Source: Chrysophaeum taylorii (lineage: Eukaryota; Sar; Pelagophyceae; Pelagomonadales; Pelagomonadaceae). Taken from it: a stretch of DNA of 64,000 bases. Below the pieces are notes generated by a model. That model saw only the letters and a program-made list of their open reading frames with translations. It was not told where the DNA came from and made no database searches. The stretch covers positions 62,001 through 126,000 of the forward strand of contig JAQMWT010000009.1 of the NCBI GenBank assembly GCA_029834535.1, given 5' to 3'. The position numbers were made by a program, and so were the translations under genes. Below are positions 1 to 57,944 of this stretch, in pieces (the stretch's first letter is position 1; each line of letters starts with the position of its first letter).

Positions 1-87
1 GTCGTCAAGTCGATCGAGAAAGTCGGCTCCGGTTCTGGAAAGACTTCCAAGGCTGTCGTCGTCGCCGACTGCGGCCAAATCGCCTAA
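1..87 (+). CDS. Cyclophilin-type peptidyl-prolyl isomerase, C-terminal end (partial)
   Basis: The window opens inside a reading frame that runs 28 codons to a TAA stop. The residues match the C-terminus of cytosolic cyclophilin A-type prolyl isomerases: a G-S-G-S-G-K-T-S-K stretch followed by V-V-V-A-D-C-G-Q, the last beta strand of the cyclophilin barrel. These enzymes catalyse cis-trans isomerisation of Xaa-Pro bonds during protein folding. The catalytic Arg/Phe/Trp residues lie upstream, outside the window, so activity cannot be judged. Upstream exons and start are not visible. A second, secreted cyclophilin lies at 52924-53496; the two differ clearly at the C-terminus. Confidence 0.85.
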   Translation, partial: VVKSIEKVGSGSGKTSKAVVVADCGQIA

Positions 88-456
88 GCTCCATTCTCTC
101 CTAGTCCGACATGCGCCTTCTTCGCGCTTCTTGGGTCCTTCTATCACACTCCTATGGGCCCCCCGGATTGCGTGCAGCCTCCCCCACCTTCGTGCCATTC
201 CACCACCTCAAGTGTCGCACGACGTCGTCGTCGTCGAGCAAGTCATCATCAGCAATGGCCACCACAACAAACGCGACTGGCGGCCCTGGCCAGCGCCGCT
301 CCCTTTTTTTCTTCTTACTTTCATCATGGTGCAACGGTTGCTTTCATCGAACTATGAACAACAGCGCCTATTTTCGTGATTGGTGCTGGTGGAAAGGCGA
401 TCTCGAACGGCAACATGTGTGCACTCGAGGGTTAGTTAGTTAGTTAGTTAGTTAGG
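88..456. other. Intergenic stretch with GTTA microsatellite
   Basis: Spacer between the cyclophilin tail and the DUF1499 gene. Short frames here overlap one another in several phases and show no family signature. It ends in six tandem GTTA units (431-455), directly in front of the downstream ATG. No TATA box is obvious. Confidence 0.5.
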
Positions 457-951: not shown

Positions 952-1360
952 AGCGAACTCCCTCGGGTATGCGCGCGGGGGAGCTGGCTAGCTATATCGC
1001 GCGACACACTCCCCGACGACGACGACGACGACGACGACGACTAACAAGGCGGCGGAATATTACGGGGTGTGGTTTCTTTCTTTCTTTCTGTCAGTCATGG
1101 TTTTGTGACGCTTTATCATACGAAAACAGCAGCAGGCAGGCTCGCGCGCGTGTACAAGAGATAATCTTGGGGGGCTGCAGCAGGAAGTTAGTTATACTAC
1201 CACCAACCTTGGGAAAACAAAAGGGTCTTGGTCGATTGAAATTGATTGAATGCCCCGCGCCGCCCCTATGAACAAACAAACAAACAAACAAACAAACAAA
1301 CAAACAAATGTCGTCGTTTTTTTCGAAAATCAGGAAGCTCCCGGATGATTTTTTCCAGGG
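952..1360. other. Intergenic stretch with simple repeats
   Basis: Spacer between tail-to-tail genes. It holds a GAC/ACG triplet run near 1012-1041 and a perfect AAAC tetranucleotide run at about 1271-1308. The same tetranucleotide recurs elsewhere in the window, for example at 53510-53541 on the other strand and in the repeat island at 55.2-57.8 kb. No gene or RNA is recognisable. Confidence 0.5.
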
Positions 1361-3118: not shown

Positions 3119-3642
3119 CGTTGTTGTTGTTGTTGTTGTTTCAACGATAATAAGCTCAAAACGTCAATTGTTTGCTCAAACGCCAACGAGATGAGGGTTT
3201 TTATTTAACCTTTCAGACGACGACGACAACAACAACAAGGGGGGAAAACGACAGCGGCTCTATGCCTGAGGTCGGCCGGCGGGGCGGAAGAAGGTCTGCG
3301 TGGCTTGGGATTATTTATTGAGAAAGATCGGCTGCTGCTGCTGCTGCTGCTGCTGAAGGGGAAAAAAGGTCGAGATGCGTGCGTGCAAGAGGGGGAAGGA
3401 ACCTTTGGGATGGTGGTTGCGCTCGCAGGAAGGGAAAGCCGACGACGCATAGTGCTCCTTATAAAAAAAAGGGCCATCTTCCCGGCTGAACTCTGGGCCG
3501 CTTTTACAAATCGATCGAAGGTAAAGAAGAAGATAAAAGCCGAGTAGGAGAAAGAAAATAGTGTATTATTAAACCAGGGAGGGGGGTGTCTCGTCTCGTC
3601 TCGTCTCGTTTAATAATCGTCTCGTTTAATAATCGTCTCAAG
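3119..3642. other. Intergenic stretch with several microsatellites
   Basis: Spacer between two minus-strand genes; it holds the promoter of the coiled-coil gene and the 3' region of the phosphatase gene. It contains a GTT run at about 3120-3139, a GCT run at about 3331-3355, and a GTCTC-type pentamer run with a repeated TTTAATAATC block at about 3588-3640. I see no gene. Confidence 0.5.
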
Positions 3643-6600: not shown

Positions 6601-7087
6601 TAAGACACTCCTTGAGGGCGTGATCGATCGCGAGGCGGATCGCGCGCAGCCACCGGTCGCGGTCGGCGCTCGAGTCGGCGCGGAGCCGCAGCTCGCGGCC
6701 CGTCGCAGCACAACGGACCGCAAATCCCCCGCCCTGGCCCGTCGCCGGCTCGATGATCGCGACTTTGATCTCGCCGCCGCGACTCGCGTCGAAGAGCACG
6801 ACCTCCCCCAGCAGCTTGAGGGACCGCGGCGCGTCGTAGTACGACAGCCGGAACGCGTCGCGCCGCAGCACGAAGAACCGCTGCTTCCAGTTCTTCCGCC
6901 ACGAGCCCTCTTTCCACAACATCCCCTCGAGCCTGACGTCGAGACTCGTGAAGGTCTTGGTCGCCTGGGGGGCTTCGGGGGCGTGCCGGCGTCCCACGAC
7001 CCACCCCACCACGCTCGACGCCACGTGCGTGCGGTACACCCGGTGGTGTTCTTCGTCACCCCAGTCACCGTACTTGGACACGTTCAT
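3643..7087 (-). CDS. PH-domain inositol polyphosphate 4-phosphatase (INPP4-like)
   Basis: Predicted 1,125-residue protein from two exons: 7087-6436 and 6368-3643. The N-terminal part has a PH domain (roughly residues 45-165) with the usual start G-M-L-W-K-E-G, K-x-R-F-F-V-L and a final W-L-R-A-I. A short C2-like segment follows. Acidic and Glu-rich low-complexity sequence and a long helical region come next. The C-terminal catalytic domain carries the Cys-x5-Arg phosphatase loop C-K-S-G-K-D-R near residue 1045, in a context (S-A-M-A-V-T-L-E-Q) typical of type I/II inositol polyphosphate 4-phosphatases, which remove the 4-phosphate of PtdIns(3,4)P2. The two coding parts lie in different frames; a 67-bp GT–AG intron joins them in phase. 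The first in-frame ATG is at 7087. Confidence 0.8.
6369..6435 (-). other. Candidate 67-bp intron in the INPP4-like gene
   Basis: On the minus strand the sequence begins GTAAGAGG, a strong donor, and ends GGGGAAG, an acceptor. Removing 67 bases joins the two coding frames exactly and also removes most of a long GAA run. The alternative is a length error or change in the GAA/GGA repeats. Confidence 0.6.
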
Positions 7088-37077: not shown

Positions 37078-37402
37078 ACTATTATAACATAGGTCGTGGT
37101 GAAGAACGGTTATGGGTGAACCTGCGTCTTGCGAGGGCATTGGTCCTCCCGGCGCGGCTTGGGACTTGTTCGCCTCCCGGGCTGGTCGATTGGCAGCCGG
37201 AGAACGTGAGCAGCGTGACGGGGTATGGCCGGGGGACGCAGATGGAAACGCCTATGACGAGATCGTTTTCAGTCAAATCGCCGTCTAAGAAAACGTGGCG
37301 AAGACGGAAGAGGTGGTGTCGAATTTGCGGAGGCGACGTACGTATGCGGGCATGTACGAGGAAATCTTTTTTCTTTACGGAGTCAGCCGTTGAAGGAAGC
37401 GT
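37078..37402. other. Flank between the thioesterase gene and the retroelement
   Basis: Promoter side of the thioesterase gene and left flank of the retroelement. No gene is recognisable, and no copia coding sequence is seen here. Confidence 0.45.
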
Positions 37403-37721
37403 AGAGAAATCTGCTGCCTCTTACCCTTATCCGTCCGTCCGTTGAGAACGTGATCTCTTCCTTACCCTTCTTCTTCCTTTCTACACAGTCAATTAGTACT
37501 CTGATGATTTGTGCTCAAGCTCATCATCATGGTCTAGCGCGTCCCGAGGTATGTAGCACTATACACTTAACCTTTCTTTTCTAGTTCTAGATGCCGCCTG
37601 TCGTGTTCCGAGGATATAGGGAACATACCTTTTCATTCCCCGAATTAATTACTTCCAGACGTTCATGATGAGACGGGCTGGTTTCCCAGGTGACTTACCA
37701 TTGCTTGCTAAATTCTTTGCA
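37403..37721 (+). repeat. 5' LTR of the copia element
   Basis: Matches 48591-48902 along its length. The exact left border is uncertain by about ten bases: homology begins at AGAGAAATC, with a TG two bases later. It ends in CA directly before the primer site. Confidence 0.75.
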
Positions 37722-37735
37722 GGTTATGGGCCCAG
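37722..37735 (+). other. Primer-binding site, half-tRNA-iMet type
   Basis: GGTTATGGGCCCAG directly after the 5' LTR. It is complementary to the anticodon stem-loop region of eukaryotic initiator tRNA-Met, not to its 3' end. Drosophila copia is known to use this same internal site, with a cleaved half tRNA as primer. Confidence 0.7.
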
Positions 37736-38911
37736 GCGGGTCCCCGAGAAACCATGTGTTAACGCGCGCACGTAACCTATGGGGTTTGGACTGTTACCGC
37801 GCCGGTCCAGCCTCGACATGTAGACACACCTGTCAATATAACGCCATTACCATTGGGCTGTATATAGCATATTTTGAACACGTGATCGTGTAACCTTGTG
37901 TGCACCTGCTCATCGTATCGTATTGTCATGTCAATGTTGATGTGCGTGTAAGTTGGCTAACCTGTACTCTTGCACACATGTTATGGAATATTTTGGGTAC
38001 GTCCACTCGTACATTCCATGGCAATGCACTTACCAAGCTCCTTGAGAGCACCAAAATTAACCAGCTGCCATGAGTGACTACGCTTAGCGGCACTACTCTG
38101 GACTCACAGCTTGCACAGTTGTCAAATAGGCTGCTTTTTCCATCGATAACGCATGAGTGTACATAGACACCGATAGACAGACCCCCTTAGAATGTCTAGA
38201 CAGTGTCAACTGCGTGACTGAACCCACAGGTTACCCGTCAACTGCTGTGGCAGAACACGCATCACGAGCCGCACCCAAGGCGATCACAGGTGCGGACATA
38301 TTGAAGCTCGAAGCTCCTGTAGTTGAGTTTCTCAACGAAGGAAATCGATTTCAGCTTCAGACCCGCAAGGTATCCTTGCAATTAAGCATATCCAACAATT
38401 ATTACGGTCCAGTCATGCCGATGCCTTCCTCGAGTACGACTAGTACGAAGCATACACTCGGTCATGCAAGGACTTCGAGGTCCTCCGGAATCAAATTCTC
38501 GGTCGCGTTTTCCTGGAATGGAAGACCAATAGAGCTGCTGATCTCCATTTAGCTGTTGATGAATTGCCCCCTGAGTATCAGGAATGGCACTTCACCAATG
38601 AAGCTTTCCCCAACTTACCTGAAGCAGAAGTAGCTCAGCTAGCTACTGTCTGTTACGACAATGAAGTCAAGGCACATTACGCCCTGAAATCAATCCCCGT
38701 TTCTTAGAAGTGGAACGAATCTTAAATCGCGCGCACTCGAGAGCATTAGCTTTTGACACCCGTGTTCGTGCCACTGTTACCATGTTTTCGTTAACTAATA
38801 CTGACCAACACGCTGGATTTATCAGACAAAAGTCTGACTCAAACTGCAAACGCACTCGCTTCCATTAATTCTTCTCAAACTGGAACATCCTCCACGTTTA
38901 ACGCTAGACGC
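37736..38911 (+). other. Leader and gag-like region of the copia element
   Basis: About 1.2 kb between primer site and first long frame. From about 38157 the sequence codes, in more than one phase, for helical gag-like protein (for example around 38230-38390 and 38400-38700). It is degraded; no capsid motif is sharp enough to name. Confidence 0.5.
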
Positions 38912-40096
38912 TTGCGTAACTCTAACGATGCTCGCCAGCCTTTCTCTCGCAGCGACCTATCGTATTATCGTTCTGGTGATTCTTACGTCACCAAGAAAAC
39001 TGCTGGACAGTCCCATGACCGTCCAATTTACCCTCGCACTTTCGACAGGTCCTCTCGATCTAACATGAAATTATTAGACCGAACGAAGCGCACCTTAAAT
39101 ACACTGCAAGAGCAGTGTAGTGAACTTACGAAGCATGTGACAGATAATGATATCACGGCTCAGCTACAACAGAACATCACCAAGTTATTTGAGACTCTGT
39201 TGCAATCCGCTGATATTCTGTCAACGACATCTACTGAGGACAATAGTGACTTACTTCGCCTAAATGAACTACTCATGTTCGCAGAAGACATCATTTATGA
39301 TGTAGACGTTCATCTATCCTCGACCGAAAAGTCGTTAAACTACGTGGAGCCACAACATCATACTGTTGCTACTGCTCCCACCCCAACGGCAAATCTTCCT
39401 ACTACAAATACCAAGAATGCCTCCAACACACAGGGTAACCCCACTGATATAGTGCCTAACTTCTTTACTGCTACCGCCATCTCGGCGTTACCACCAGCGT
39501 TACTGTCCTCGCTATCTTCACAGGTCCAATCAGCCATCACCCAACCATCACAAGCCGAAACCACAAGGGATGTCGATCAGACCTTGCTATCATCATTTGA
39601 TGAGAAGCACGGCATGGCTGATGAGGCTGACGAACCATCACCACCTTTTCGACCGATTATCATTCCAACTCACCTGATATTTCTGGAGAACTCCTTCACT
39701 GCCAGCCTCTCCACTACTTGCCCGCGTTCGGAAAATGCACTTCTAACGAAATATATGAAGGTAAACAGTGTCCCCCAAAATTGTTCCTTTTTATATTTTG
39801 ACTCTTGTGCTACCATATCATTAATGTCCACATGCGATTTTGCAATACCAAATCATATTATTCCACCGGATTCCGAATACGCGCCGATTATTATACAAAC
39901 TGCCACTGGACAACAACGTGCCTCACATATGATGCTAACACGTAATATAGTTGTTCCCCTACCAGATCATCCACAAATCGGTTACTTAAAGATTGACTTC
40001 GCTTTATGTCTTCAGCCAGTGCACAACCGACATCTCGCCATCTTGAGCATGCTCGAGTGGAACCAGACGAACTTGACCACTGTGTTCATTGATTGA
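38912..40096 (+). CDS. Copia gag C-terminus and aspartic protease region
   Basis: 394 codons. The first 140 residues are a helical, Ser/Arg-containing gag-like end. An S-L-N-Y motif lies at codons 141-144 (39332-39343). After a Thr/Pro/Ala-rich linker comes the retropepsin-like domain: Y-F-D-S-C-A-T-I near 39800 is the active-site Asp motif, and later strands (N-R-H-L-A-I-L-S-M-L-E-W) match copia proteases. Part of a broken retroelement; it is followed by a short gap before the methyltransferase-like frame. Confidence 0.7.
   Translation: MRNSNDARQPFSRSDLSYYRSGDSYVTKKTAGQSHDRPIYPRTFDRSSRSNMKLLDRTKRTLNTLQEQCSELTKHVTDNDITAQLQQNITKLFETLLQSADILSTTSTEDNSDLLRLNELLMFAEDIIYDVDVHLSSTEKSLNYVEPQHHTVATAPTPTANLPTTNTKNASNTQGNPTDIVPNFFTATAISALPPALLSSLSSQVQSAITQPSQAETTRDVDQTLLSSFDEKHGMADEADEPSPPFRPIIIPTHLIFLENSFTASLSTTCPRSENALLTKYMKVNSVPQNCSFLYFDSCATISLMSTCDFAIPNHIIPPDSEYAPIIIQTATGQQRASHMMLTRNIVVPLPDHPQIGYLKIDFALCLQPVHNRHLAILSMLEWNQTNLTTVFID
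39322..39343 (+). repeat. S-L-N-Y boundary motif, site 1 (gag / protease)
   Basis: GACCG followed by GTCGTTAAACTA (39331-39342), in frame as T-E-K-S-L-N-Y. It lies between the gag-like end and the protease linker. Confidence 0.7.
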
Positions 40097-40417
40097 TCTG
40101 AGCCAAAGCTCAGCGCTGGCACAAGCCGCATAGACAAAGATGTGCGTATTCCCATACATTACTTAGCAGCTAATTTGCCTGCTCTCCCCTGTCTCACCTA
40201 CAACAGCGCTCGCGACAAGCAACTCGAACTACGCTCCCTCGCATTTCCGCTCAAGCGATACCACGAAAACAGGGATCTACTGGCATATTACAACTATCTC
40301 CTCAAGAGAGTTTTACCAGATCGCCCGTGGATTCGCCCTTTGGTTCTTAATCTTCGGAAACAGAACAAGTTCGTCCAGCAAAACACTCCGCCATTAACAT
40401 GAATACTTTCTCGCCCA

Positions 40418-42742
40418 GTGTTTCTCTCACAAGAGCCCAATCTTCGCAAACCCTCTGTCATGTTATTCTGTTCTGGTTTGTCAACCCCAGCGTCCCTGTC
40501 TCAAGCCACTAGTGACCTAGGCTTAAATATCAATGTAAAAGTTGTTGTTGAGTCTGATGATACGCTGGTGCGCATGTTACGCCACCGTTTCGCTACAGTA
40601 TTATTATTTGAATCTTTACCCGCCTTTATCAACCATCTTCACCTAATCTCACCAGAGGAAAGGCGCAAATTTTATTGCGATATTATTGAGATCACTCCTC
40701 CCTGCACCAACAGGAATCTACTAAAGCAGCATAAGACCGAAGACTTACACAGCCTGCTCGACGACTCTCTGTTCGACAGCATGCTGTCTGTCATCAAACT
40801 TCTCCAACCCTTGGTACTACTGGCTGAGATGACACCACCCCACAAGTATTGTCATCAAGACCACATAAATGTCGCCAATCTCATCCATGCCACACTCGAT
40901 TACTGTGTCGATGTTGTTGACAGGTTCCCGACCTACCTCTGTGGCGACTACCAATCTAGGGAAAGATGGACCTGCATCGCACGCAGGTATTCAACCGGAC
41001 CAATCAACATACTGTCATGGCCTATCCACCACCCACGCCCCTTCTTTAAGATCGTGGATGACATACAAGCCATTCCTAAACGACTTTGGCTATCCAATGA
41101 TATCTCCAAAGATTGGATCCGGGTGTTCCCCGATCCTCCATATGTCCCCGTTCCTAAAACGTTTGCACCCTACTCTCGCACAGGTTCTGTTCAGCTTACT
41201 ATGACTGACCTTGAAACACTCAATATGTTATTTTTGCGCCTTCACTCACAACAGGCTCACGAGCAACGCACGCACTCTGTTCAATCCGAGTGTACTTATC
41301 ATCAGCTGTGTTTCAAACGCTCCTCCATGGATCCACTGCCTCATGCAACTAATCCATTGCATGTTAAGGCTTTTACCACCCTCTATAACGTGTTTGCCAG
41401 ATTGCACACTGACTCACCCACTCCTGTGTCCTATAACATAACCGTTTTTGAAACTGACCAACCGTCACATAGGTTACTACTTACAACCTCATCAACATCC
41501 CTCAATACCTACTTCCTAACCGGCGGCCACAATTCTGACGGCAACCTCACCACAGAAAACGCCGCCATCAAATATCATGCTTCCATTGACGCGTTTGGAA
41601 GCACGTATACGTTTACTGCCTCCAACGTCCCCCGCGACAGAGACAGGTCTATATATTTGGAGCCGTTTGTGGGTTACTTGTGGATCATCCAAGCCCTTCC
41701 TCAAGTTGGCTCCGCTGCCGCCTATGGCACCGCCATACAAAAGCTCTTGTCCAGATGCTCTCTTGTGATGCCTGGCTGCCTTACCTACAAGGCCACCGAC
41801 AATTCTTTCGACTACAAGGATTCTCATTTTGCTCTGGAAGATCACCACTTATCTCATAGTCGCTATATAGGGTATCTTCGTGGAAGTGACCGCAAACTCG
41901 GCTCTAAAATCCACTCCATGCTTGCTCCATTGCCCACCGTCCGAGGGTATGCAAACATTATCTTACTCGACCCTCGCAACGGGAAATTACGCTATCCTAC
42001 TCGACCGGAGTTGATTCGTGCTAACAACCACACCAAACAACAGGAATCTTTCCTCTTGTCTCTTCGCCACGACCTTTGCTGCGACATGCTCAGCAATGCT
42101 CTGCCTGCCGGTACGTACAGCACACTGTACAAGCACCTTTCGCTCCTCGTTGCCGATATTAAATCTCTTATGTTGGACCCTACCTTCCAACATACTGCTG
42201 CCGTGACGAAGAAATCCTATGTATCCAACTTCATGACCTTTGATCCGGCCTCCACCACGTGCAGCACAGATACCTTGTCTTTGGCACAAGCCTTCATGAC
42301 TTCTATCTCCAGCAACTGCTTGACCGAAATGTCGTTAAACTATATATCTTCGTCCTACGAAGATACTCTCGCTACTTGTGATGATGAGGATGCACCTCCA
42401 AGTGACCCTGCTGCGCACCAGGATGACGACGCACCGCCTCCTCCTGCCTTGGACACCGAACTCAAGTTCGATGTTCGGCGCAAACGTCATATCCCCGCTC
42501 ATCCCATTCCTCGCAAATCCTTCGCACACGGATCTGCTGAATACCTCAACGCCAAAGAACGTGCCAATCGCTTCCACCGGGTGCACCACTGCCCCGACAA
42601 CGTTGCTGCCAAGGCCCCCAACGTACTGGCTCGCCCTGGCTTCTCTGCCTCAGATGTACCGTATCGCGGCTTATGCACCGACTGCATCGCACATAACAAG
42701 CGCCACCCGCACAAGCACTTCAATCCGACCAAGCCCTCTTAG
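40418..42742 (+). CDS. C5 cytosine methyltransferase-like domain plus integrase zinc-binding region
   Basis: 774 codons between protease and integrase core. The first part follows the ordered motifs of C5 DNA methyltransferases: motif I-like V-M-L-F-C-S-G-L; motif IV-like I-T-P-P-C-T-N with the Pro-Cys pair at residues 95-96; motif VI-like region near residue 135; motif VIII-like D-Y-Q-S-R-E-R-W near 178-184; a long insert of about 340 residues where a target-recognition region would sit; then motif IX-like R-Y-P-T-R-P-E-L-I (near 524) and motif X-like L-S-N-A-L-P-A-G-T (near 558). S-L-N-Y follows at 42332-42343. The end holds the integrase HHCC zinc-binding region (H-R-V-H-H-C ... C-T-D-C). 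Activity cannot be inferred; the element as a whole is broken. Confidence 0.65.
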   Translation: MFLSQEPNLRKPSVMLFCSGLSTPASLSQATSDLGLNINVKVVVESDDTLVRMLRHRFATVLLFESLPAFINHLHLISPEERRKFYCDIIEITPPCTNRNLLKQHKTEDLHSLLDDSLFDSMLSVIKLLQPLVLLAEMTPPHKYCHQDHINVANLIHATLDYCVDVVDRFPTYLCGDYQSRERWTCIARRYSTGPINILSWPIHHPRPFFKIVDDIQAIPKRLWLSNDISKDWIRVFPDPPYVPVPKTFAPYSRTGSVQLTMTDLETLNMLFLRLHSQQAHEQRTHSVQSECTYHQLCFKRSSMDPLPHATNPLHVKAFTTLYNVFARLHTDSPTPVSYNITVFETDQPSHRLLLTTSSTSLNTYFLTGGHNSDGNLTTENAAIKYHASIDAFGSTYTFTASNVPRDRDRSIYLEPFVGYLWIIQALPQVGSAAAYGTAIQKLLSRCSLVMPGCLTYKATDNSFDYKDSHFALEDHHLSHSRYIGYLRGSDRKLGSKIHSMLAPLPTVRGYANIILLDPRNGKLRYPTRPELIRANNHTKQQESFLLSLRHDLCCDMLSNALPAGTYSTLYKHLSLLVADIKSLMLDPTFQHTAAVTKKSYVSNFMTFDPASTTCSTDTLSLAQAFMTSISSNCLTEMSLNYISSSYEDTLATCDDEDAPPSDPAAHQDDDAPPPPALDTELKFDVRRKRHIPAHPIPRKSFAHGSAEYLNAKERANRFHRVHHCPDNVAAKAPNVLARPGFSASDVPYRGLCTDCIAHNKRHPHKHFNPTKPS
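42322..42343 (+). repeat. S-L-N-Y boundary motif, site 2 (methyltransferase-like / integrase)
   Basis: Same nucleotide core (42331-42342), in frame as T-E-M-S-L-N-Y. It lies after the motif X-like region and before the integrase zinc-binding region. Confidence 0.7.
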
Positions 42743-42789
42743 GGAAAACTCACAAAGCCGGCGAAATCTGGGCGTGCGACGGCGGCTAT

Positions 42790-45700
42790 GTGACAATTCC
42801 GTCAGAATGGGGGGGCTTCACACATATCATTGTGTTCAAAGAACTTATCTCGAAGTTTCTCTTGGTGTACTTTACACGCACCACCAACGCCACGGAGTTC
42901 ACTCAAGCTCTGGACTTTGTGTATGACTTTTGTCGTACACAACTCAACGTGCACATGCGCACCCTCTACTCTGATGCCTTCAAGCCCTACTTTAGCCAGC
43001 ACATTACCGCCCCGTACCGCGTCGATAAGGGCATTCAGCTCATCGCTTTCCCGCCGTACATGCACCACTTTAACTTTGAAGTTGAGTCAGCCATCGGCTT
43101 CATCGCCTCCGCCTCCTCAACTCGCCTTCGTTCTCTCCTTAATGCTCATTATCGTGGCTCAAAGATCGTGGAACCAGCCATCATGTTTCCCTGGGCGGTA
43201 ATACACACCATCCAAAGCTACAACCTTCTCCCGAACGCCACGCTCGAGCGCATTCACCATGCTATCCTGAGTCCGCAACAGCTACTCTACAATCAACTGA
43301 GCACCCCACAGCATGACATGCTCAAGATCTTCGGCGCTGAATGCTACCTTCTATTGGAACCCCACGAGCACCACAAGTGGGAACCGTGCCGCCGCAAATA
43401 CTTATATCTATGTTGCGCCAACGCGCAAAACCCGCTCGTCTCCCCACGTGTTGACCATATTGCCGACGTCGTCCTCAACCCTGAAAACGGACAAATCCGT
43501 GTTTCGTCCAAGCTGCAATTCCTCTACATGCTCCAGCATCCTACTCCTGATCCTGAACTTGCTCCTCCGCCTCACGCTCCTCCCGCGCCTTTCTCGCTCA
43601 CACCCCACGCTGCTATCCAAGACCATCTCATTCAGAGGGGGGCACGGACACTTCATCCTCAGAGGGGGCACTCTCCACCTCCCTCAGCTCCTTCTTCGTC
43701 CCCTGCTCCTGCTTCTCCTCCCTCTTCCGACGCTCCCGTCGACGATTCTGGCTCTATGCCACCGCCGCCCTTGCTTCCTTCTTACAAAGACCTTTTTGCA
43801 CAAGATGACCTCATTCTTGTCCCAGGTTCCAAACAACCTAACACCCGCAAGGCAACCTCCATGAAAAATATCCAAGCCCGGCTGCAAGCGTCTACTATTG
43901 GTGCTTACAAAGCCGCTGGTGGCAAACTCGCCGATTTCCGCTGGGATCTTCGCCACCACTTTCTTACGTTCAAGTCTCCCGCCCTCTCCGCCCTTCATAT
44001 CAATGGTGGTATCCTCTGGTCTGCTATCTGCTCAGAGGGGGAACATGCGTTGTTAGCTCGTCTTCTTCTCCCGTTGCGCACTGACTTACTTGCCCGTTAC
44101 CCTCACGTCGATGGTTACTTCGCCCACGCTAAGTGCGCATCCAGCATCCCAGCCGCAACCTTTCTAACTGCTGATGGTTCACCTACGTGCCCCATTCCTC
44201 AGCCTCTTTTAGCTGCGTTCACTGAGCACGCTGCTGCCTTTGGCATCTCTTCCTTACAGTATGCACTTACGTATCTGGCGCCGACCAGCTTTATCGATCA
44301 CAACTCCTCCGAGTTTGGCGCTAATTCTGCATCTCTGTCTGACTTGGAGGAATACCTTCTGGTCTCTACAGAGTATATCACCCAGGTCTTACATGCCGAC
44401 CCTACTATCCATATTCAACTGGAATCTGCTTCTTCTACCCCTCCTACTGACGCTGTTTCCGCTTATCCCGAAGTCGCGCACACTGCCTCGACCGCAACGT
44501 CGTTAAACTATAGTTCACCAGCCACTGTTGGTCCTGACGAATATAAGGTCCAAGAAGCGGACGTTTCCATCGACGAATATAAACTTAAGTGCCTCCACGG
44601 TATGTCGCCTGAAGACAGGCACGCCTACCTCAAGGCCATCGCCAAGGAACTCCACGACATTATCCGCTTTGGCTGCTTCAAACTTTCTTTACCCGACGGT
44701 GTCTCTCGCCCTATTGACAGCAGGATGGTGCTGAAGATTAAAACAGACTCTGCAGGCAAATACGTTAAGCACAAGGCTCGCCTCGTGCTACGTGGCTTCC
44801 TAGCATCCCTTGGCGCCGATTTCTTTGGCACCTTCAGCCCAATGGCCACAATGACCGCAATCCGGGTACTACTGGCTATTGCAGCATACAAGCAATTGCC
44901 TGTCTACCACGCAGACGTCCCGAACGCCTTCGTTCAGTCTGACATTGATGCCAACGTCTATGTTCAGTTACCAGACGGCATCAAGCTTATCGACCCCGAT
45001 GACGCTAAGTACAAGGGCCGACGCCTACCAAAACTGCTGAAGTCACTTTATGGAATTCGTCAATCGCCATCTCTTTGGAACAAAGAGATAGACGGCTTCT
45101 TCCGTAGCCTTGGCTACAAGCGCCTGTATTCGGACTCTTGCCTATATGCTCGAGTATCCGCACATGCTAAGTTCGTCGTATGCAGTCTGTCTGTAGACGA
45201 CATTGTTATTGTGTCCAATGATGACACTCTTCGTACTGAGTTACAGGATGCCCTTCACAAACGGTATGCTGTAGAGCAGTTTGAACCTGTCCATACCCTC
45301 CTAGGCATGCGTGTGTGTCGCACATCTGATGGATCCATTTCTCTGGATGTGCAAGCCAAGCTTGATGATCTCTTCGCTGATCACCCTGTCTTGCCGCAAC
45401 TGACTCCGCTTAAATATCCTATGTCATCGTCCTTCAAGTATAAAGATGGCACTCCCAGCTCTGAAACAGAGTTGTACGTCAATTCGCACTTTGCCACCCT
45501 CCTTGGCATGCTGGTGTTCATGCACGTGGCCTGCAGACCTGACTTCTCGCAAGCCTTGGGCAGATGTTCGCGTGGTATGCATGCACCCACGTATGTTCAC
45601 GTCCAAATGCTAGAGCACTTGCTTCGCTACCTCAAGAAACCGGAAAACCGCTCACTTCGCCTCTGGTTCCATCCTAAAGGTAATGCTATTGAAGCTCACC

Positions 45701-46275
45701 TTCGCACTTTCTCCGCTAATCGAATTGATCTTTCCACTGTGGTTGACTACCAACCGCAGGATGTATCCACTGGACAGTTTGATCCCTTAGTCGCCATGGT
45801 TGACGCAGACAATGCCCCTTCCTTAGCAAAGGAAGATAGGAAATCTACCACCGGGTTTGTCTTCTATCTTTTCAACTGCCTTATTGGTTGGAAAAGCGAG
45901 CTTCAACCGATTGTCTCCTGCTCAACTCACGAAGCTGAGTTGATTGCCCTCAGTATTTGTGCTGATGAAGCTGTTTGGCTACGCAAGCTGTTGTTGGAAC
46001 TCTCCTTTGTCGTCAACCCCACCTTCTACGTCAACAATGTTAATGGTGAGAACACCGCTAATCCTGTTGATTTCGATGACAATGACAACCCAATTCTGAA
46101 GATATGCGCTTCATCAGAAGACTACCCCTCTTGTCTGACAATGCTGCTGCTGTTCACACCTCTAATAACCCAGATGGATCCTCTCGATCCAAGGCACTGT
46201 CGACCAGATGGTTTAAGATCCGTGAGTACATCTCGCTACAGAAAATTCGAGTCCATCATGTTCCCGGCAAGCTAA
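42790..46275 (+). CDS. Copia integrase core, reverse transcriptase and RNase H region
   Basis: 1,161 codons. The integrase catalytic core comes first (43000-43400 region, with L-Y-S-D-A-F-K-P). A Pro-rich stretch follows, then S-L-N-Y at 44500-44511. The reverse transcriptase is of the RVT_2 copia type: R-P-I-D-S-R-M-V-L-K, K-A-R-L-V-L-R-G-F, the F-S-P-M-A-T and H-A-D-V-P-N-A-F motifs, L-Y-G-I-R-Q-S-P and the catalytic V-D-D-I-V near 45195. RNase H has V-D-A-D-N-A-P, R-K-S-T-T-G-F and S-T-H-E-A-E-L-I-A-L, continuing a little past this frame to about 46378. Part of a broken element. Confidence 0.85.
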   Translation: MTIPSEWGGFTHIIVFKELISKFLLVYFTRTTNATEFTQALDFVYDFCRTQLNVHMRTLYSDAFKPYFSQHITAPYRVDKGIQLIAFPPYMHHFNFEVESAIGFIASASSTRLRSLLNAHYRGSKIVEPAIMFPWAVIHTIQSYNLLPNATLERIHHAILSPQQLLYNQLSTPQHDMLKIFGAECYLLLEPHEHHKWEPCRRKYLYLCCANAQNPLVSPRVDHIADVVLNPENGQIRVSSKLQFLYMLQHPTPDPELAPPPHAPPAPFSLTPHAAIQDHLIQRGARTLHPQRGHSPPPSAPSSSPAPASPPSSDAPVDDSGSMPPPPLLPSYKDLFAQDDLILVPGSKQPNTRKATSMKNIQARLQASTIGAYKAAGGKLADFRWDLRHHFLTFKSPALSALHINGGILWSAICSEGEHALLARLLLPLRTDLLARYPHVDGYFAHAKCASSIPAATFLTADGSPTCPIPQPLLAAFTEHAAAFGISSLQYALTYLAPTSFIDHNSSEFGANSASLSDLEEYLLVSTEYITQVLHADPTIHIQLESASSTPPTDAVSAYPEVAHTASTATSLNYSSPATVGPDEYKVQEADVSIDEYKLKCLHGMSPEDRHAYLKAIAKELHDIIRFGCFKLSLPDGVSRPIDSRMVLKIKTDSAGKYVKHKARLVLRGFLASLGADFFGTFSPMATMTAIRVLLAIAAYKQLPVYHADVPNAFVQSDIDANVYVQLPDGIKLIDPDDAKYKGRRLPKLLKSLYGIRQSPSLWNKEIDGFFRSLGYKRLYSDSCLYARVSAHAKFVVCSLSVDDIVIVSNDDTLRTELQDALHKRYAVEQFEPVHTLLGMRVCRTSDGSISLDVQAKLDDLFADHPVLPQLTPLKYPMSSSFKYKDGTPSSETELYVNSHFATLLGMLVFMHVACRPDFSQALGRCSRGMHAPTYVHVQMLEHLLRYLKKPENRSLRLWFHPKGNAIEAHLRTFSANRIDLSTVVDYQPQDVSTGQFDPLVAMVDADNAPSLAKEDRKSTTGFVFYLFNCLIGWKSELQPIVSCSTHEAELIALSICADEAVWLRKLLLELSFVVNPTFYVNNVNGENTANPVDFDDNDNPILKICASSEDYPSCLTMLLLFTPLITQMDPLDPRHCRPDGLRSVSTSRYRKFESIMFPAS
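44490..44511 (+). repeat. S-L-N-Y boundary motif, site 3 (integrase / reverse transcriptase)
   Basis: Same nucleotide core (44499-44510), in frame as T-A-T-S-L-N-Y. It lies between the Pro-rich integrase tail and reverse transcriptase. Confidence 0.7.
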
Positions 46276-46396
46276 ACGTGGCTGATGGTTTTACAAAGCC
46301 ACTTGCTGCTGAGTTCTCCACTTTTCGTTCTCTACTCGGCATGCATCGTGCCTCTGACGACAAGCCTTTACAGGATTGAAGATGCCTAACCCTCGT

Positions 46397-46417
46397 GACC
46401 GCAACGTCGTTAAACTA
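46397..46417 (+). repeat. Boundary motif, site 4 (after RNase H)
   Basis: The nucleotide core GTCGTTAAACTA at 46406-46417 recurs with the same GACCG lead, between RNase H and the extra frame. A diverged version (ATTAAACTA, 50071-50079) sits at the equivalent place in the second copia fragment. Confidence 0.65.
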
Positions 46418-46562
46418 ACCCTGGCTCTTTTGCCACATTTTTTTTGTACACGTGTGAGTGTCGCTCATGTCCTTTTCTTGGTACTCCCGTGGCCGCGGCA
46501 TCTGCCCAATCGTTTGAAGGACAGTCCCACGCTCGCTCTCCACGGCCGAACCTTCTCCCAGG

Positions 46563-48443
46563 TTGTCGCAAAAGCAACAACCCATGACCGCTGTTACTGC
46601 TACCCCACAGGCCGCTGGTGTTGCACCGACACCAGCCGAACATATCTTACCTCAATCACTAACGCTCCAGGACGGCCTCAGCATGGACTATGCTTTATAC
46701 GAACCAGGAATCTCTCTCCTTGAGAACTTCCGTGTCCCTGTCACCCCATTTCTCTCTTCTTTTATGCGAGTGGAACTCATCACTGCCCTACACTCGGTCT
46801 ATGAGTCTACTGACTTTTCATTGTTTGTGGAACTGACCACATTCATATCCATGCGCTTACCCATTACTATACCTTGGGAAGCTGCTCCTGCTATTGCTTC
46901 TATTGGCTGCTACAGAGGCCCCAAACGCGAACGTTTCATTTTGTCGTCCTTTTGTACGCAATGCCTCAATGATCTTGGACAACCGACTTTCCTCGTCTCA
47001 ACCACGTACAGTTCCAAGGCACAAACACCTCGTGAACTCCCCACTGAAGTGCTGAGTCACCTCAACACGGACGACCATAAGAAGAATGGTCACATCCCCA
47101 TCTCTGCTATTACTATGGGGGTGTGCTTTGCTTGTCACAATACTGATCAGGTGCCCATACAACCTACCGTATGTGCTCGCAATGATACTTCCTTCCAATT
47201 CCCTTGTGATGCGCGCTCAGCTGGTCATATACGCGCTACCCTCATACGCATCTATCATTTGTCAAGGGAGTTATATACTCTTTTGATAAGCATACTAGCA
47301 CAACACCCGTCACTTGTTAACTTGGTCTTATCTGAATCCTCTCTGGCCACAACAGATTCTCCTACACAGTGGCCATTCGCACTGGATCTTCGGCTTATAA
47401 CACAGATGCACCTTGAGCATCTTAAATTCCTTGTGACCCTTGTTCGAACACAGAGTCGCAAAGCTCAGGCTATGTTCAAGCCCCCCAAATTCCAACCTGT
47501 GGTTACCACAGTTGCCCAATCGTGGGTACAACATCTTGACGACTACGTATCATCTTCAGATGATACAAAACCGCCGTCACTCCTGGATGTAATGTTCGGC
47601 CCCGCTTATACTCAGGCAGAACACCAAGACTTTCTGCGCTTTTTAAACGCGAAACACCCCCTACTCGCACAGCACGTGTTGACCGAAGCGTCGTTAAACT
47701 ACCCACTCTCCACATCAGACCCTACTCTGGAGATGTCTTCGCCATCGACACACCCTGCGCCTTCTGCCTCGCTTGATGATGTCGATGCCTTGCGTCAACA
47801 AGTCGAGCAACTCCAGGAAACTCTTCAACTACACATTCGCAAGGTCAACACTCTCGGTGCTGAGAATCTATCTCTACGCACAGATCTACAGGCTGCCATT
47901 GCTTCAATCACCTCCCTGGAAAACCGGCTCTTTACTCCTACAGCCAACGCACACGTGTTACTTATAACACTGTACAAGATCACAGAGCTGTTGTCTCGCT
48001 TAACTCTTACCGCTCATGACCAATATGCCGCCAACCACTCCTCCCCGGACGATCGCCTCCTTCATCTGCGTGACAAGTTGCTCTCGTGTATCCAGAGCAT
48101 TCCGCTCGCATGTGAATCGGAAGACTCTTCTATCTTCTCGGATCCGTTCGCTGAGTCCAGCTTCTTGGAAAACCAACTGGACACCCTACAACTTGACTCG
48201 CTGGTGCCATCCATACTGAATGCTTTACTTGCACTCACGTTTCGTATGGTACCACACCATTCTGCTATTGGTGTTCACCACCTTACAGCAGAAGCCGACG
48301 ACGACGATACCGATACTCTTGAACCAGTAACGATGTCCACCACCTCAGATAGCCCTAACACACTGTCTGTCGTACCTGTGTTTCGTAAAGCTCTGTTCAA
48401 AGGCGCCAAGTCGACTCTCAGCTCCACCAAGTCCAAGCCCTAA
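46563..48443 (+). CDS. Extra reading frame downstream of RNase H in the copia element
   Basis: A 626-codon frame between RNase H and the 3' LTR, a position where standard copia elements have nothing. Residues 1-375 are a mixed alpha/beta sequence with several Cys and His; an S-L-N-Y motif sits at 47691-47702 (codons 377-380). After it comes a Pro/Ser linker and a clear coiled coil (L-R-Q-Q-V-E-Q-L-Q-E-T-L-Q-L-H), a Leu-rich region and an acidic patch. I see no signal peptide, membrane helix or known domain, so an envelope is not supported. A structural or gag-like protein is possible. Function unknown. Confidence 0.6.
   Translation: MSQKQQPMTAVTATPQAAGVAPTPAEHILPQSLTLQDGLSMDYALYEPGISLLENFRVPVTPFLSSFMRVELITALHSVYESTDFSLFVELTTFISMRLPITIPWEAAPAIASIGCYRGPKRERFILSSFCTQCLNDLGQPTFLVSTTYSSKAQTPRELPTEVLSHLNTDDHKKNGHIPISAITMGVCFACHNTDQVPIQPTVCARNDTSFQFPCDARSAGHIRATLIRIYHLSRELYTLLISILAQHPSLVNLVLSESSLATTDSPTQWPFALDLRLITQMHLEHLKFLVTLVRTQSRKAQAMFKPPKFQPVVTTVAQSWVQHLDDYVSSSDDTKPPSLLDVMFGPAYTQAEHQDFLRFLNAKHPLLAQHVLTEASLNYPLSTSDPTLEMSSPSTHPAPSASLDDVDALRQQVEQLQETLQLHIRKVNTLGAENLSLRTDLQAAIASITSLENRLFTPTANAHVLLITLYKITELLSRLTLTAHDQYAANHSSPDDRLLHLRDKLLSCIQSIPLACESEDSSIFSDPFAESSFLENQLDTLQLDSLVPSILNALLALTFRMVPHHSAIGVHHLTAEADDDDTDTLEPVTMSTTSDSPNTLSVVPVFRKALFKGAKSTLSSTKSKP
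47681..47702 (+). repeat. S-L-N-Y boundary motif, site 5 (inside the extra frame)
   Basis: Same nucleotide core (47690-47701), in frame as T-E-A-S-L-N-Y-P. It separates the globular part of the extra frame from its coiled-coil part. Confidence 0.7.
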
Positions 48444-48590
48444 GACACCCTGCTATACTCTTGATGCTTCGTATGTGACCTTTGCGACCATCAAGACTGT
48501 ATTCTCCTTTTTTTTCTTTCCTTCATCATCATCTTTCTCAAGAGAGGTTCTATAGTCGCACCTTGCGCTTAAGACATCTCGAGGGCGTAC

Positions 48591-48902
48591 AGAGAAATCT
48601 GCTGCCTCTTACCCTTATCCGTCCGTTGAGAACGTGATCACTTCCTTACCCTTCTTCTTCCGTTTTACACAGTCAATTAGTCCTCTGATTTGTTGCTCAA
48701 GCTCATCATCATGGTCTAGCGCGCCCCGAGGTATGTAGCACTATACACTTAACCTTTCTCGTGTAGTTCTAGATGCCGCCTGTCGTGTTCTGAGGATATA
48801 GGGAACATACCTTTCATTCCCCAAATTAAGTACTTCCAGACGTTCATGATGAGACGGGATGGTATCCCAGGTGACTTACCACTGCATGCCAAATGCTCTG
48901 CA
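48591..48902 (+). repeat. 3' LTR-type copy
   Basis: Homologous to 37403-37721 throughout. It could be the 3' LTR of the large element or the 5' LTR of the fragment that follows; no primer site lies after it. Confidence 0.75.
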
Positions 48903-50061
48903 GAAAGAATACTCTGTTGAAGACATTGAAGAAGTTCATACTCTCCTAGGCATGCGAGTTACACGCACTCCCGATGGTTCTATCTCACTTGATTGCCAAG
49001 CTAAGGTTGATGCATTGTTTGAAGAGTATCCCGTCTTAACGCAGTTACGTCCCACATCAACCCCTATGTCTCCTTCAACTATATATAAAACTGAAGAGCC
49101 ATCCTCTGATACAGACAAGTTCATCCAACACACCTTCTCCACCCTACTTGGCAAGATCACTTTTGTACAGTTGGCCTGTCGCCCTGACTTATCGCAAAGC
49201 CTTAGTCGCTGCTCCCGTGGAATGCACAATCCAGCATATCTGCACGTCCAGGTATTAACAGGAGTACTTCGCTACTTGCGCAAACCAGAAAATCGCAATC
49301 TTCGATTATGATACTACTCTGGTTCTTTTGCTCTAATGGAACGTCTCAGATCTATTATCGGCAATCGTACTGATATGGCCACTATGTTAGACTATACTAA
49401 AGAACAAGTGGATTCAGGTAGTTTTGATCCACTGGTTGCGTTCGTTGACGCCGATAACGCACCCTCTTACGAACAAGACCGCAAATCTACGACTGGTTAT
49501 GCTGTTTTTGTGTTTGGTTCCCTTGTCACTTGGAAGTCCAAACTGCGACCTATAACAGCCACTTCCACGCACTAGAGTGAGCTTATTGCTCTAAATATGT
49601 GTGCTGATGATATGGTCTGGCTACGTAAACTGCTGACGGAAATGGCTTTTGCTATAAATCCGCGATACTATCTTCGCCAACCTCCAGGGAAAGATCTGCT
49701 ACTAGACTACTATGCTCATGACAATCCTCTCCCGTCTGACATGTCATTCATACGTAACAGTCCTATACTCGGAGATTCAGCTTCTGCCATCCACTTGTCG
49801 AATAATCCTGATAGTGCAACCAAAGCCAGAGCCGTCAGCACACGTTGGTTTCGTGTTCGTGATTATATTCACCTAAGACGTATTCGCTTGCACCATGTTT
49901 CTTGCACTCAGAATATTGCTGATGGATTCACAAAGCCCTTCGGTGCTCCTTTCTTTGCTAAATTTCGCACGTTACTTGGTCTACAACAACCCATAGCCCT
50001 ACGAGACACTTAATCATTACCCTTATCACTATGTCCATCATTACCCTTATCACTATGTCCA
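48903..50061 (+). mobile_element. Second Ty1/copia fragment (reverse transcriptase end and RNase H)
   Basis: Starts inside the late reverse transcriptase (H-T-L-L-G-M-R-V, homologous to 45290-45320), continues through S-R-C-S-R-G-M-H and RNase H (V-D-A-D-N-A-P, D-R-K-S-T-T-G-Y), and ends with the family's typical I-A-D-G-F-T-K-P. Protein similarity to the neighbouring element is clear but well short of identity, so it is another member of the lineage. It is a fossil with few visible breaks. No right LTR follows. Confidence 0.8.
50014..50061 (+). repeat. 24-bp tandem duplication
   Basis: Two perfect copies (50014-50037, 50038-50061) beginning TCATTACCC and ending TATGTCCA, just after the RNase H frame of the second copia fragment. 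Confidence 0.85.
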
Positions 50062-55177: not shown

Positions 55178-55534
55178 TTATAATTATAATTAATCCTTAC
55201 TACTAATCGACAGATGTTTCTCTGTCTGTCTGTCTGTCTGTCTGTTTGTTTGTCTTTAAATGTCGACTGCTAAGAGGGGGGTGTGTGTGGGGAGCATGAA
55301 GGATGTGGGTGGGTTTGTTTGTCTTTAAATGTCGACTGCTAAGAGGGGGGGGTGTGTGTGGGTTTGTTTGTCTTTAAATGTCGACTGCTAAGAGGGGTGT
55401 GTGTGTGGGGAGCATGAAGGATGTTTGTCTGTCTGTTTGTCTTTAAATGTCGACTGCTAAGAGGGGGGTGTGTGTGGGGAGCATGAAGGATGTGGGTCTG
55501 TCTGTTTGTCTTTAAATGTCGACAAGTGCAGGCC

Positions 55535-55860
55535 AGTAAGTTCACCTAGTCCCAATCTCCAACTCCAGTAGTTCACCTGGTCAGTAAGTTCACCTAGTCC
55601 AAATCTCTAACCCCAGTAAGTCCGGCGTAAACCCACTCGTGCTCACACCACTCCTTCGACCTCGTCGCTCTCGCCTCCGCCAATCTAGGCTGCTTTGATC
55701 CGCACACGCCGCTAACCTTTGAGTTTACTCTAATAGTAAAACCCCCAGTAAGTTCACCTGGTCTCAATAAGTTCACCTGGTCACTATATTCACCTAGTCC
55801 CAATCTCAAACCCCAGTAAGTTCACCAGGTCCCAGTAAGTTCACCTACAGTGCGCGTGTA
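55535..55860 (+). repeat. Interspersed AGTAAGTTCACCTGGTC-type repeats
   Basis: About eight near-copies of AGTAAGTTCACCTRGTC (R = A or G) in 300 bp, some arranged in pairs with CCCAATCTC between them. Unknown role; they lie next to the 3' end of the Helitron helicase remnant. Confidence 0.7.
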
Positions 55861-55876
55861 GATGCTGGGAGGGGGC

Positions 55877-56140
55877 TTATCGGTATTGCGCAGCACGTGT
55901 GGGGTAGGGTGGAGTCGTCGACCCAGATGAATATATCCTCGGGGATGCCGATCGACAGAGAGCCACGTAGAGCTGGACGTGGCAGAAGACGGGCTTGGGA
56001 AAGAGGACGCCGACCTCGCGGGGCGTCTGGCCCTGGCTCTTGTTGATCGTTTGGCGTAGGCGGGCCTTAAGCGATACAGGTTGGAGGAGCCTCGGTGACA
56101 ACGACATGATCGATCATGTATCTGGTACCGTTGCAGTGGC
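55877..56140 (-). pseudogene. Helitron/PIF1-type helicase fragment
   Basis: The minus strand carries the C-terminal helicase motifs: C-N-G-T-R-Y-M-I-D-H-V-V-V-T-E-A in one phase (about 56080-56140) and then, in another phase, T-I-N-K-S-Q-G-Q-T ... V-G-V-L-F-P-K-P-V-F-C-H-V-Q-L-Y-V-A-L-C-R (55920-56060), matching the family's T-I-N-K-S-Q-G-Q-T and H-G-Q-L-Y-V-A-L-S-R. The phase change and the Ser-to-Cys and Gly-to-Val differences mark it as decayed. Spacing and sequence are of the Helitron RepHel type rather than cellular PIF1, though this is not certain. No Rep domain is seen in the window. Confidence 0.7.
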
Positions 56141-56411
56141 CGTGCGACGGGTCGAGGTTTCGAAGACTTTAAGCTCGCGATCAAAGTCAGCATGCCGTTG
56201 GTTGTCAGGGAGTTGAAAACTCTACTGTAAAGAGCGAGGCGTCGTCTTCCGACCCAGCCTAGTCAGCCGAAAAGAACTCCGACGCCTCGTCTCCGGGAAA
56301 AAAAGGCCGCGGTCATGCGCGCGTTGTCAGCATCGACAACATCGTTTCGACGGGGCGTGAGAATGGCGCGCTGAAAGAGCCGCCGCGGGTCGTGGAAATA
56401 GTCTGCGAGGT

Positions 56412-56810
56412 CGCCGTAGACGGCTTGGAGGATCACTGTCTGGCTCTCGCGCCTACCTGATCCTTACTCTCGCGCCTACCTGATCCTTACCCTAAATCGA
56501 GGGACAAACAAACAAACAGACAAACAGACAAACATCTGTCGATTCGCCGTAGACGGTTTGGAGGATCACTGTCTGGCTCTCGCGCCTACCTGATCCTTAC
56601 TCTCGCGCCTACCTGATCCTTACCCTAAATCGAGGGACAAACAAACAAACAAACAGACAGACAAACATCTGTCGATTCGCCGTAGACGGTTTGGAGGATC
56701 ACTGTCTGGCTCTCGCGCCTACCTGATCCTTACTCTCGCGTCTACCTGATCCTTACCCTAAATCGAGGGACAGACAAACAAACAGACAGACAGACAGACA
56801 AACGTCTGTC
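56412..56810 (+). repeat. 133-bp unit in three tandem copies
   Basis: Copies start at about 56412, 56545 and 56678, each with CGCCGTAGACGG, GGATCACTGTCTGGCTC, two CGCCTACCTGATCCTTAC boxes and an ACAAACAGAC-type run ending CATCTGTCGATT. The unit end is the same sequence found in the island's terminal repeats. Copies differ at only a few sites. Confidence 0.85.
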
Positions 56811-56909
56811 GATTAGTAGTTAGGACAGACAAACTCCGAATACCTCGCTCACGCCCGCGGCATCGACGCCATCATCCCCCAGCCGGGTACAGCACCACCG
56901 CCTGGCTTC

Positions 56910-57320
56910 TTGGGCCCTGTCGAACAGCGGCTACGTAGCTACGGCACCGTCGCCGGCCTCGTCTTTGGTGCCTTCGGTGAGGCCAGCGCGGCGTGCCACG
57001 CTCTCGCCCAAACACGCGCAGAGCGCATCGCTGCGCGAACCTGGGTGACAAGCGGCTGCGCCAACTTCACAGAGGCAAAGGCGGCCCAAACTCGCCGCAT
57101 CTACCGTGAGTGGGGGATCGCCAACGCATTAGGCCGGGCTCGCTGTGCCCTCACCGCCCTCACCCATGTCGCCGCCTCGGGGAACCCCGCCCAGGCCGCC
57201 CGATCCCAGCAGGACGTCACCCTTCGTCGCACATACGTCCGGCGGCAGCATGCGTACGACCTACGGGCGGGGCCCGTCCTCTCTTCGCCTGCCCCACGCC
57301 TCGGCGATGACCCCGACTAG
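56910..57320 (+). CDS. Uncharacterised 136-codon frame inside the repeat island
   Basis: Ala/Arg-rich protein with the segment V-A-G-L-V-F-G-A-F-G-E-A-S followed by an Ala-rich helix and W-V-T-S-G. It has host-like high GC. I have the impression that similar V-F-G-A-F-G-E-A-S segments recur in algal repeat-borne proteins, but cannot confirm it. It is probably a remnant of a mobile element gene captured in the island. Low confidence that it is expressed. Confidence 0.3.
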   Translation: MGPVEQRLRSYGTVAGLVFGAFGEASAACHALAQTRAERIAARTWVTSGCANFTEAKAAQTRRIYREWGIANALGRARCALTALTHVAASGNPAQAARSQQDVTLRRTYVRRQHAYDLRAGPVLSSPAPRLGDDPD

Positions 57321-57944
57321 GTCCCGCGTACTTATCTCCGCCCGTCAGGCACATCCCTCATACCCCACAAACCCACCCACATCCTTCATGCTCCCCACAC
57401 GCACCCCCCCCTCTTAGCAGTCGACATTTAAAGACAGACAGACAAACAAACAGACAAACAAACATCTGTCGATTAGTAGTTAGGAAGACAGACAGACAGC
57501 CACACACACCCCCCTCTTAGCAGTCGACATTTAAAGACAGACAGACAAACAGACAAACATCTCCGCCCGTCAGGCACATCCCTCATACCCCACAAACCCA
57601 CCCACATCCTTCATGCTTCCCACACACACCCCCCTCTTAGCAGTCGACATTTAAAGACAGACAGACAAACAAATACCCACATCCTTCATGCTCCCCACAC
57701 CCCGCCCCCCCCTCTTAGCAGTCGACATTTAAAGACAGACAGACAAACATCTCTTAGCAGTCGACATTTAAAGACAGACAAACATCTGTCGATTAGTAGT
57801 TAAGATGTCGATTAGTAGTAAGGATTTTAGTAGCTTGGTGGTGTCGAACTCAACGGACGTAACCGTAAAGCTCTTATAGTGTGGTGGTGACGCAAGCAGA
57901 CATACAACAAATACAAACCAAACCAAACCCGGCCAGGAGGGGAT

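Follow-up and report, generated by a model that had tools for sequence, protein, structure and literature searches.

Does a retrotransposon of the alga Chrysophaeum taylorii, a pelagophyte and thus a stramenopile, carry a cytosine methyltransferase of its own? The question is raised by a Ty1/copia element, bounded by long terminal repeats (LTRs), at positions 37400-48902 of a 64,000-nucleotide stretch of the genome of this alga (assembly GCA_029834535.1, contig JAQMWT010000009.1, positions 62,001 to 126,000 of the forward strand; C9:62001-126000 in our contig numbering), which is called the window below. Retrotransposons normally are the targets of cytosine methylation, and elements that keep a methyltransferase of their own allow one to examine whether the epigenetic state of selfish DNA is of its own making. 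As judged from sequence comparisons, the element contains a divergent domain that is very probably a homologue of the C5-cytosine methyltransferases. Apparently, selfish DNA in C. taylorii brings along an epigenetic tool of its own.

The domain is located between protease and integrase in a frame of 779 codons that extends from stop to stop over positions 40403-42742. An earlier note had claimed that one long frame at this place carries the C5-methyltransferase motifs in a given order, and this was borne out: all of them were found in this frame, with the protease-like motif YFDSCATI upstream and the zinc and core motifs of integrase downstream, from 42575 onwards. In the predicted domain, motifs I-VIII make up the catalytic half; they are followed by a long middle region, in the position of target recognition, and by motifs IX-X.

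40418-42340, + strand: predicted divergent C5-cytosine-methyltransferase domain, 641 amino acids (based on motifs, copies, family B, profiles and a guided model, see below)
40460-40483, + strand: motif I, MLFCSGLS, in frame
40541-40561, + strand: motif II, VVVESDD, in frame
40691-40711, + strand: motif IV, ITPPCTN, with the candidate catalytic cysteine; P-P-C unchanged in all 13 aligned copies
40817-40843, + strand: motif VI, LLAEMTPPH; E retained, N of E-N-V replaced by M
40949-40981, + strand: motif VIII, YQSRERWTCIA (Q-x-R-x-R), from the alignment of 13 copies
41990-42019, + strand: motif IX, RYPTRPELIR, in frame
42089-42112, + strand: motif X, LSNALPAG, in frame

The earlier note had proposed a search for related copies in the same genome, and such copies are indeed abundant. 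In 70.8 Mb of sequence on 697 contigs, the domain has at least 73 matches, fragments included, the full-length ones being 75-100% identical; these copies are designated family A. The alignment of 13 copies shows no variation in the P-C (motif IV), the E (motif VI) or the R-x-R (motif VIII), and TPPC is present in 19 of 20 loci when any of the three frames is considered. Regular expressions applied to three frames count motif I and Q-x-R-x-R only loosely, and the 13-row alignment was used instead. Two of the loci, L014 (C10) and L015 (C297), are near-identical copies with matching positions on contigs of similar size, as expected of uncollapsed haplotypes; copy counts may therefore be slightly inflated. 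The idea that many copies with the reverse transcriptase (RT) lack the domain was rejected: the RT has at least 150 matches and the domain at least 73, counting the best-scored candidates only, and both of the fetched copies outside the domain match list, a small sample, carry the domain.

The window copy itself is decayed. It contains a stop at 40094-40096, which is found at that place in none of 14 other loci examined, and its frame is broken near 42700; the copies L009, L013, L019 and L020 remain in the integrase frame there. In L002, the frame is open to the end of the locus, yet partly off the integrase frame, and this copy was not counted as intact there. Across 15 copies free of stops (two are partial), the pooled ratio of nonsynonymous to synonymous substitutions (dN/dS) of the domain is 0.197 overall, with 0.105 for motifs I-VIII, 0.253 for the middle region, 0.185 for motifs IX-X and 0.295 for residues 601-641. 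The greater variability of the middle is, we infer, what a target-recognition region would show. Where the integrase is open (four copies), dN/dS is 0.128 for domain residues 1-200 vs. 0.124 for the integrase, and thus the catalytic half appears to be constrained as strictly as the integrase. The final 250 codons of gag-protease before the TGA discussed below give 0.079 (8 copies). The large number of genomic copies and the low dN/dS together argue that the domain is not a product of chance.

By itself, the window domain is not recognised as a METHYLTRANSFERASE in any of the databases searched, and its link to known enzymes runs through a second Ty1/copia family of the same genome, family B. 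In locus L051 (C96:62000-69999, frame 1097-6955), a family B frame of 1952 amino acids contains, in this order, a PF00145 domain (E = 1.1e-7), an rve integrase domain (under the cut-off) and RVT_2, and the PF00145 domain sits between a protease-like motif and the integrase. The family B domain has 94 genomic matches at E ≤ 1. PF00145 matches all 15 aligned members, the best at 5.1e-12, of which only the E-values are informative since the members were originally found by PF00145. Of these 15 members, all keep L-P-C-Q and 14 keep E-N-V. The RTs of families A and B are 39.5% identical and their methyltransferase domains ~19%. The two domains are collinearly similar over motifs IV-X (Smith-Waterman z 7.6, with none of 1000 shuffles as good), and this also holds for the N-terminal (z 6.9; 0 of 1000 shuffles) and C-terminal (z 5.9; 1 of 1000) halves. 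Among the shared columns are PC, the glutamates of motifs VI and IX, the final R of motif VIII and the NA of motif X.

A joint profile of A and B was compared with reference C5-methyltransferases, i.e., 96 of 120 listed relatives of a host methyltransferase gene (C634, CTAYLR_008533), a set which is DNMT2-like and chosen by the query. It matched with E = 2.1e-6 and its N-terminal part with 6.1e-7 (E for one comparison), and its score of 53.4 may be set against a maximum of 25.3 among shuffles. Control regions score like shuffles against the same reference (middle region 13.3, integrase 23.6, gag-protease 17.4, RT 20.1). A blind hmmsearch of 177,635 PDB sequences with the joint profile returned nine matches at E ≤ 10, led by 8yf3 (1.4e-4, significant), 3g7u (0.066) and M.HaeIII (0.14). 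Five of the nine are C5-methyltransferases, with DNMT2 at E 0.78, and the remaining four represent the unrelated protein CDC23. The same search with B alone gave a single match, E 0.24, to an uncharacterized protein and outside motifs I-VIII. The identity of the window domain as a C5-methyltransferase is thus supported through its relatives, by the collinearity of A and B, the PF00145 match of B, the joint profile, the blind PDB search and a guided structure model.

The domain is separated from gag-protease by a stop codon:

40400-40402, + strand: in-frame TGA between gag-protease and methyltransferase-integrase-RT; TGA in 18 of 22 copies

Protease and methyltransferase are successive frames of the same phase, with the TGA in between. 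Among 23 loci examined, L071 ends upstream of the site and was excluded; of the remaining copies without TGA, two near-identical ones on two contigs have TGG and two are rearranged or deleted. When stops are counted at fixed locus positions, where indels can conceal shared ones, this TGA is common to 13 of 20 loci, and any other in-frame stop (positions 1000-3500) occurs in three at most. Its conservation among the copies argues that the stop at 40400-40402 is not a result of decay, and it suggests stop readthrough in family A. The context is mostly ACA-TGA-ATG or ACC/ACT-TGA-CTA. Since no in-frame ATG is present ahead of motif I in the copies with ACC/ACT-TGA-CTA, readthrough would fit better than restart of translation. 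No such stop intervenes in L051 of family B, where one frame holds both the protease-like motif and the domain.

Several results weigh against the identification as a C5-methyltransferase or against the readthrough and self-methylation proposed below. The earlier note had itself named the lack of a profile hit as a refuting outcome, and the translated window domain alone indeed yields no PF00145 match in Pfam at E ≤ 10; among 13 copies of family A, a single one matches, with E = 0.029. The window protein found no match in searches of NCBIfam, PHROGs or PDB either. The profile of the 13 copies scores 27.3 against the methyltransferase alignment and its N-terminal part 26.8, where 100 shuffles of that part have a mean of 15.9 and a maximum of 26.9; columns 13-194 of this profile align with motifs I-VIII of the methyltransferases, in order. 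Comparison of A with B gives E 1 in phmmer over the whole sequence, a probability of 1% and E 0.05 in hhalign with separate profiles, the aligned stretch being motifs IV-VIII, and nothing in blastp with the C-terminal parts alone; a blastp match of 4.4e-5 takes in the integrase zinc region. Taken alone, motifs IX-X do not reach significance against the reference set (E 0.044). The F-x-G-x-G of motif I is found in neither family, A having SGLS and B AGGLH, and in family A motif I is without the second glycine and motif VI without the asparagine. With these changes, binding of S-adenosylmethionine or catalysis may be altered. No RNA structure was found downstream of the TGA (fold z -0.33, -0.05 and -0.44). 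C/T differences among copies show no clear CG-biased pattern (CG 0.112, CHH 0.099 and CHG 0.067 of C-bearing site pairs), and this small bias leaves no clear trace of CG methylation. The structure predictions that the earlier note had called for were divided: AlphaFold2 (AF2), unguided and with the 13 family A copies, failed (predicted local distance difference test score, pLDDT, 29), and modelling with 35 reference methyltransferases as a guide gave a class I fold with the expected order of strands and helices in residues 8-195, though this model is not independent, as its alignment holds those 35 true methyltransferases. In the listed fold alignments, the guided model is 11-18% identical to solved structures.

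Taken together, we consider it likely that the domain is a C5-cytosine methyltransferase domain that evolved fast under functional constraint. A single acquisition by an ancestor of A and B is probable, and the domain is now located between protease and integrase. That the motifs were merely read into an unrelated copia region, e.g., an expanded spacer, is very improbable: the empty single-sequence profile searches, the failure of unguided AF2 and the non-significant phmmer comparison are what such a coincidence would give, but the collinear similarity of A to B, itself a significant PF00145 match, was not equalled by any of 1000 shuffles, and elsewhere in these proteins the scores resemble those of shuffles. 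A homologue that is no longer an enzyme, i.e., a structural or nucleic-acid-binding remnant that spaces integrase and protease, binds RNA or targets integration, seems unlikely, even though it would agree with the altered motifs I and VI, the large distance of family A from PF00145 and the lack of a clear sign of CG methylation. Such a remnant is difficult to reconcile with the invariance of the motif IV cysteine, the motif VI glutamate and the R-x-R of motif VIII, with the lowest dN/dS being found in the half with motifs I-VIII, and with the retention of L-P-C-Q and E-N-V in family B.

Alternatively, the domain might methylate RNA like DNMT2, the target being the genomic RNA of the element or the initiator tRNA, half of which seemingly primes its reverse transcription. 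The reference set that the joint profile matched is DNMT2-like, motif IX (L-R-Y-x-T-x-x-E) resembles that of DNMT2-like proteins, and the primer-binding site (PBS), GGTTATGGGCCCAG, is presumably complementary to the anticodon arm of the initiator tRNA. We nonetheless regard an RNA target as improbable: the reference set was not chosen neutrally, the blind PDB search was led by 8yf3, a DNA C5-carboxymethyltransferase, with two bacterial DNA methyltransferases, and the long middle region falls in gaps of the DNMT2-like rows.

For the favored C5-cytosine methyltransferase, we lean towards the view that the family A domain is catalytically active; that it acts on the element's own DNA is close to an even call, with the balance tipping slightly to the other side. 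In this picture, most ribosomes would end at the TGA and produce Gag-protease, and occasional readthrough would yield a longer product that includes methyltransferase, integrase, RT and RNase H. From this, the methyltransferase domain may be freed by the protease, or it may stay joined to integrase inside the particle. It would methylate cytosines in the cDNA of the element itself or in newly inserted copies, and new copies would enter the genome already marked, to be tolerated or silenced on the element's terms. The observed/expected ratio of CpG is 0.90 in the element vs. 1.34 and 1.25 in its flanks, a difference that may reflect composition only.

Retrotransposons with DNA methyltransferase (DNMT) domains have been described before: KnitGypsy-Dnmt3, SymbioDIRS-Dnmt3 and SymbioLINE-Dnmt are Gypsy, DIRS and LINE elements, respectively, of a charophyte and dinoflagellates (de Mendoza et al. 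2018; PMC5890265). As in these elements, a C5-methyltransferase domain lies in the coding region of a high-copy algal retrotransposon with key residues retained. As in the DNMT-carrying retrotransposons of that study, a DNMT-type domain in the coding region is combined with purifying selection across copies; the Ka/Ks of KnitGypsy-Dnmt3 is <0.2 (PMC5890265), and dN/dS in family A is 0.1-0.3 by region. The described domains are of the DNMT3 or orphan type and were counted by PF00145, whereas family A is not recognised by PF00145. Family A further differs in belonging to Ty1/copia, in its stramenopile host and in the position of the domain between protease and integrase; the 2018 paper states that the Copia elements abundant in Symbiodinium have no DNMT domain (PMC5890265). 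One sentence in another paper mentions DNMT3 in "LTR Copia and DIRS" elements of streptophytes and dinoflagellates (PMC12344493). This resembles family A in placing a DNMT in LTR Copia, but it concerns other lineages and the DNMT3 type, the section gives no architecture, and it cites the 2018 paper (PMC5890265), in which the streptophyte element is a Gypsy element. In the open-licence PMC literature, as far as its text was available, no described DNMT architecture in Ty1/copia, no stramenopile case and no preceding TGA were found, and the available text of the host genome paper (PMC10366177) contains no word beginning with "transpos". Thus, DNMT-carrying LINE, DIRS and Gypsy elements are already known, and, as far as these sources extend, what is new is the copia architecture, the stramenopile host and the preceding TGA.

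Compared with the enzymes of PF00145 (M.HhaI, M.HaeIII, DNMT1, DNMT2 and 8yf3), family A has the same motif order (I, IV, VI, VIII, IX, X), a variable middle and the catalytic P-C, and the guided model, unlike the unguided one, predicts a class I fold; it is unlike them in its changed motifs I and VI and in the ~1000 bp between motifs VIII and IX. Among 5.8 billion proteins, no homologue of A or B was found at E ≤ 1, scoring the candidates that share short words, and in IMG/VR, searches for relatives of A or B gave 56 and 15 pattern matches, none of them confirmed. As standard annotation does not recognise so divergent a domain, similar captures may be missed elsewhere. C. taylorii is culturable and offers three families, A, B and C, for comparison in one genome.

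Family C belongs to Ty3/gypsy. In locus L052 (C235:19000-26504), PF00145 matches residues 725-781 of frame 1-3333 with 22.2 bits (cut-off 22), ahead of RVT_1, RNase H and an integrase zinc domain. Motifs FSGAGG and SPPC are present (profile E 4.9e-10), and by eye, the match to motifs VI and VIII is poor. The family has at least 150 genomic matches, and some of its frames exceed 3000 amino acids (C5). No match was found between A and C, and B and C match with E 0.08 or weaker and not between methyltransferase motifs. The domain of family C resembles those of A and B no more than by chance, which suggests a separate capture. It is a tentative idea, and on the whole a doubtful one, that at least two lineages (the A+B ancestor and the gypsy family C) independently captured methyltransferases upstream of integrase/RT and that family A meters the enzyme by UGA readthrough. 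If true, a particle-borne methyltransferase would be a recurrent, selected part of LTR elements, and cDNA would be marked before or at integration, each insertion being pre-silenced or self-regulated on arrival. The genome also encodes host methyltransferases: L022 (C621) is a PF00145 protein with T-S-C in motif IV and an open frame of 2086 amino acids, DNMT5-like by eye, and L021 is a DNMT2-like gene.

The assignment of the window element to Ty1/copia is based on an integrase upstream of an RVT_2-type RT, with rve in the same frame. Its order is gag-protease, TGA, methyltransferase-like domain, integrase, RVT_2, RNase H (by motif only, at 45790-45954, 3' of RVT_2), a frame of 641 amino acids and the 3' LTR. 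The remaining features are:

37400-37721, + strand: 5' LTR, 322 bp, 91.6% identical to the 3' LTR and followed by the PBS-like GGTTATGGGCCCAG
38795-40096, + strand: gag/protease frame, with YFDSCATI at 39794-39817; the stop at its end (40094-40096) is decay of the window copy
42575-43101, + strand: integrase zinc finger and D...D...E core, by motifs; rve E = 0.0052, 17.5 bits, under the cut-off
44689-45333, + strand: reverse transcriptase RVT_2, Pfam E = 1.2e-41
46518-48443, + strand: extra frame of 641 amino acids that separates RNase H from the 3' LTR, at the usual place of an env gene
48588-48902, + strand: 3' LTR, 315 bp, from comparison of the LTR pair and the edges of the C127 copy

A copy on C127 has the same LTR edges, with LTRs that are 97.1% identical, end in TG...CA and are flanked by the 5-bp repeat CTGAG/CTGAG, as is usual for Ty1/copia. 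In the window copy, the LTR starts are mutated to CG and TA, and the flanks are GGAAG/GAAAG. The protease has no Pfam match and was assigned by its D-S-C motif and position only. We take the PBS, GGTTATGGGCCCAG, to be the complement of the initiator-tRNA anticodon arm, as in copia-type priming by a half-tRNA. The arm sequence occurs at six genomic sites, one of which was fetched, and ARAGORN made no tRNA call there. The frame at 46518-48443 has no Pfam match at E ≤ 0.001 and no similarity to gag (best E 4.4); in the C127 copy, it is represented by three pieces of 81, 93 and 90% identity. In 2-kb bins, the domain lies in a stretch of 46-54% GC, and the rest of the window has 57-69%. Directly to the right of the 3' LTR, at 48903-50013, another copia relative is represented by a fragment with RT and RNase H; its DNA is ~66% identical to the RT of the element over the matching parts. 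Further downstream, at 55194-57806, a cluster of direct and inverted repeats is found, which also matches an insertion within the C127 copy of the element.
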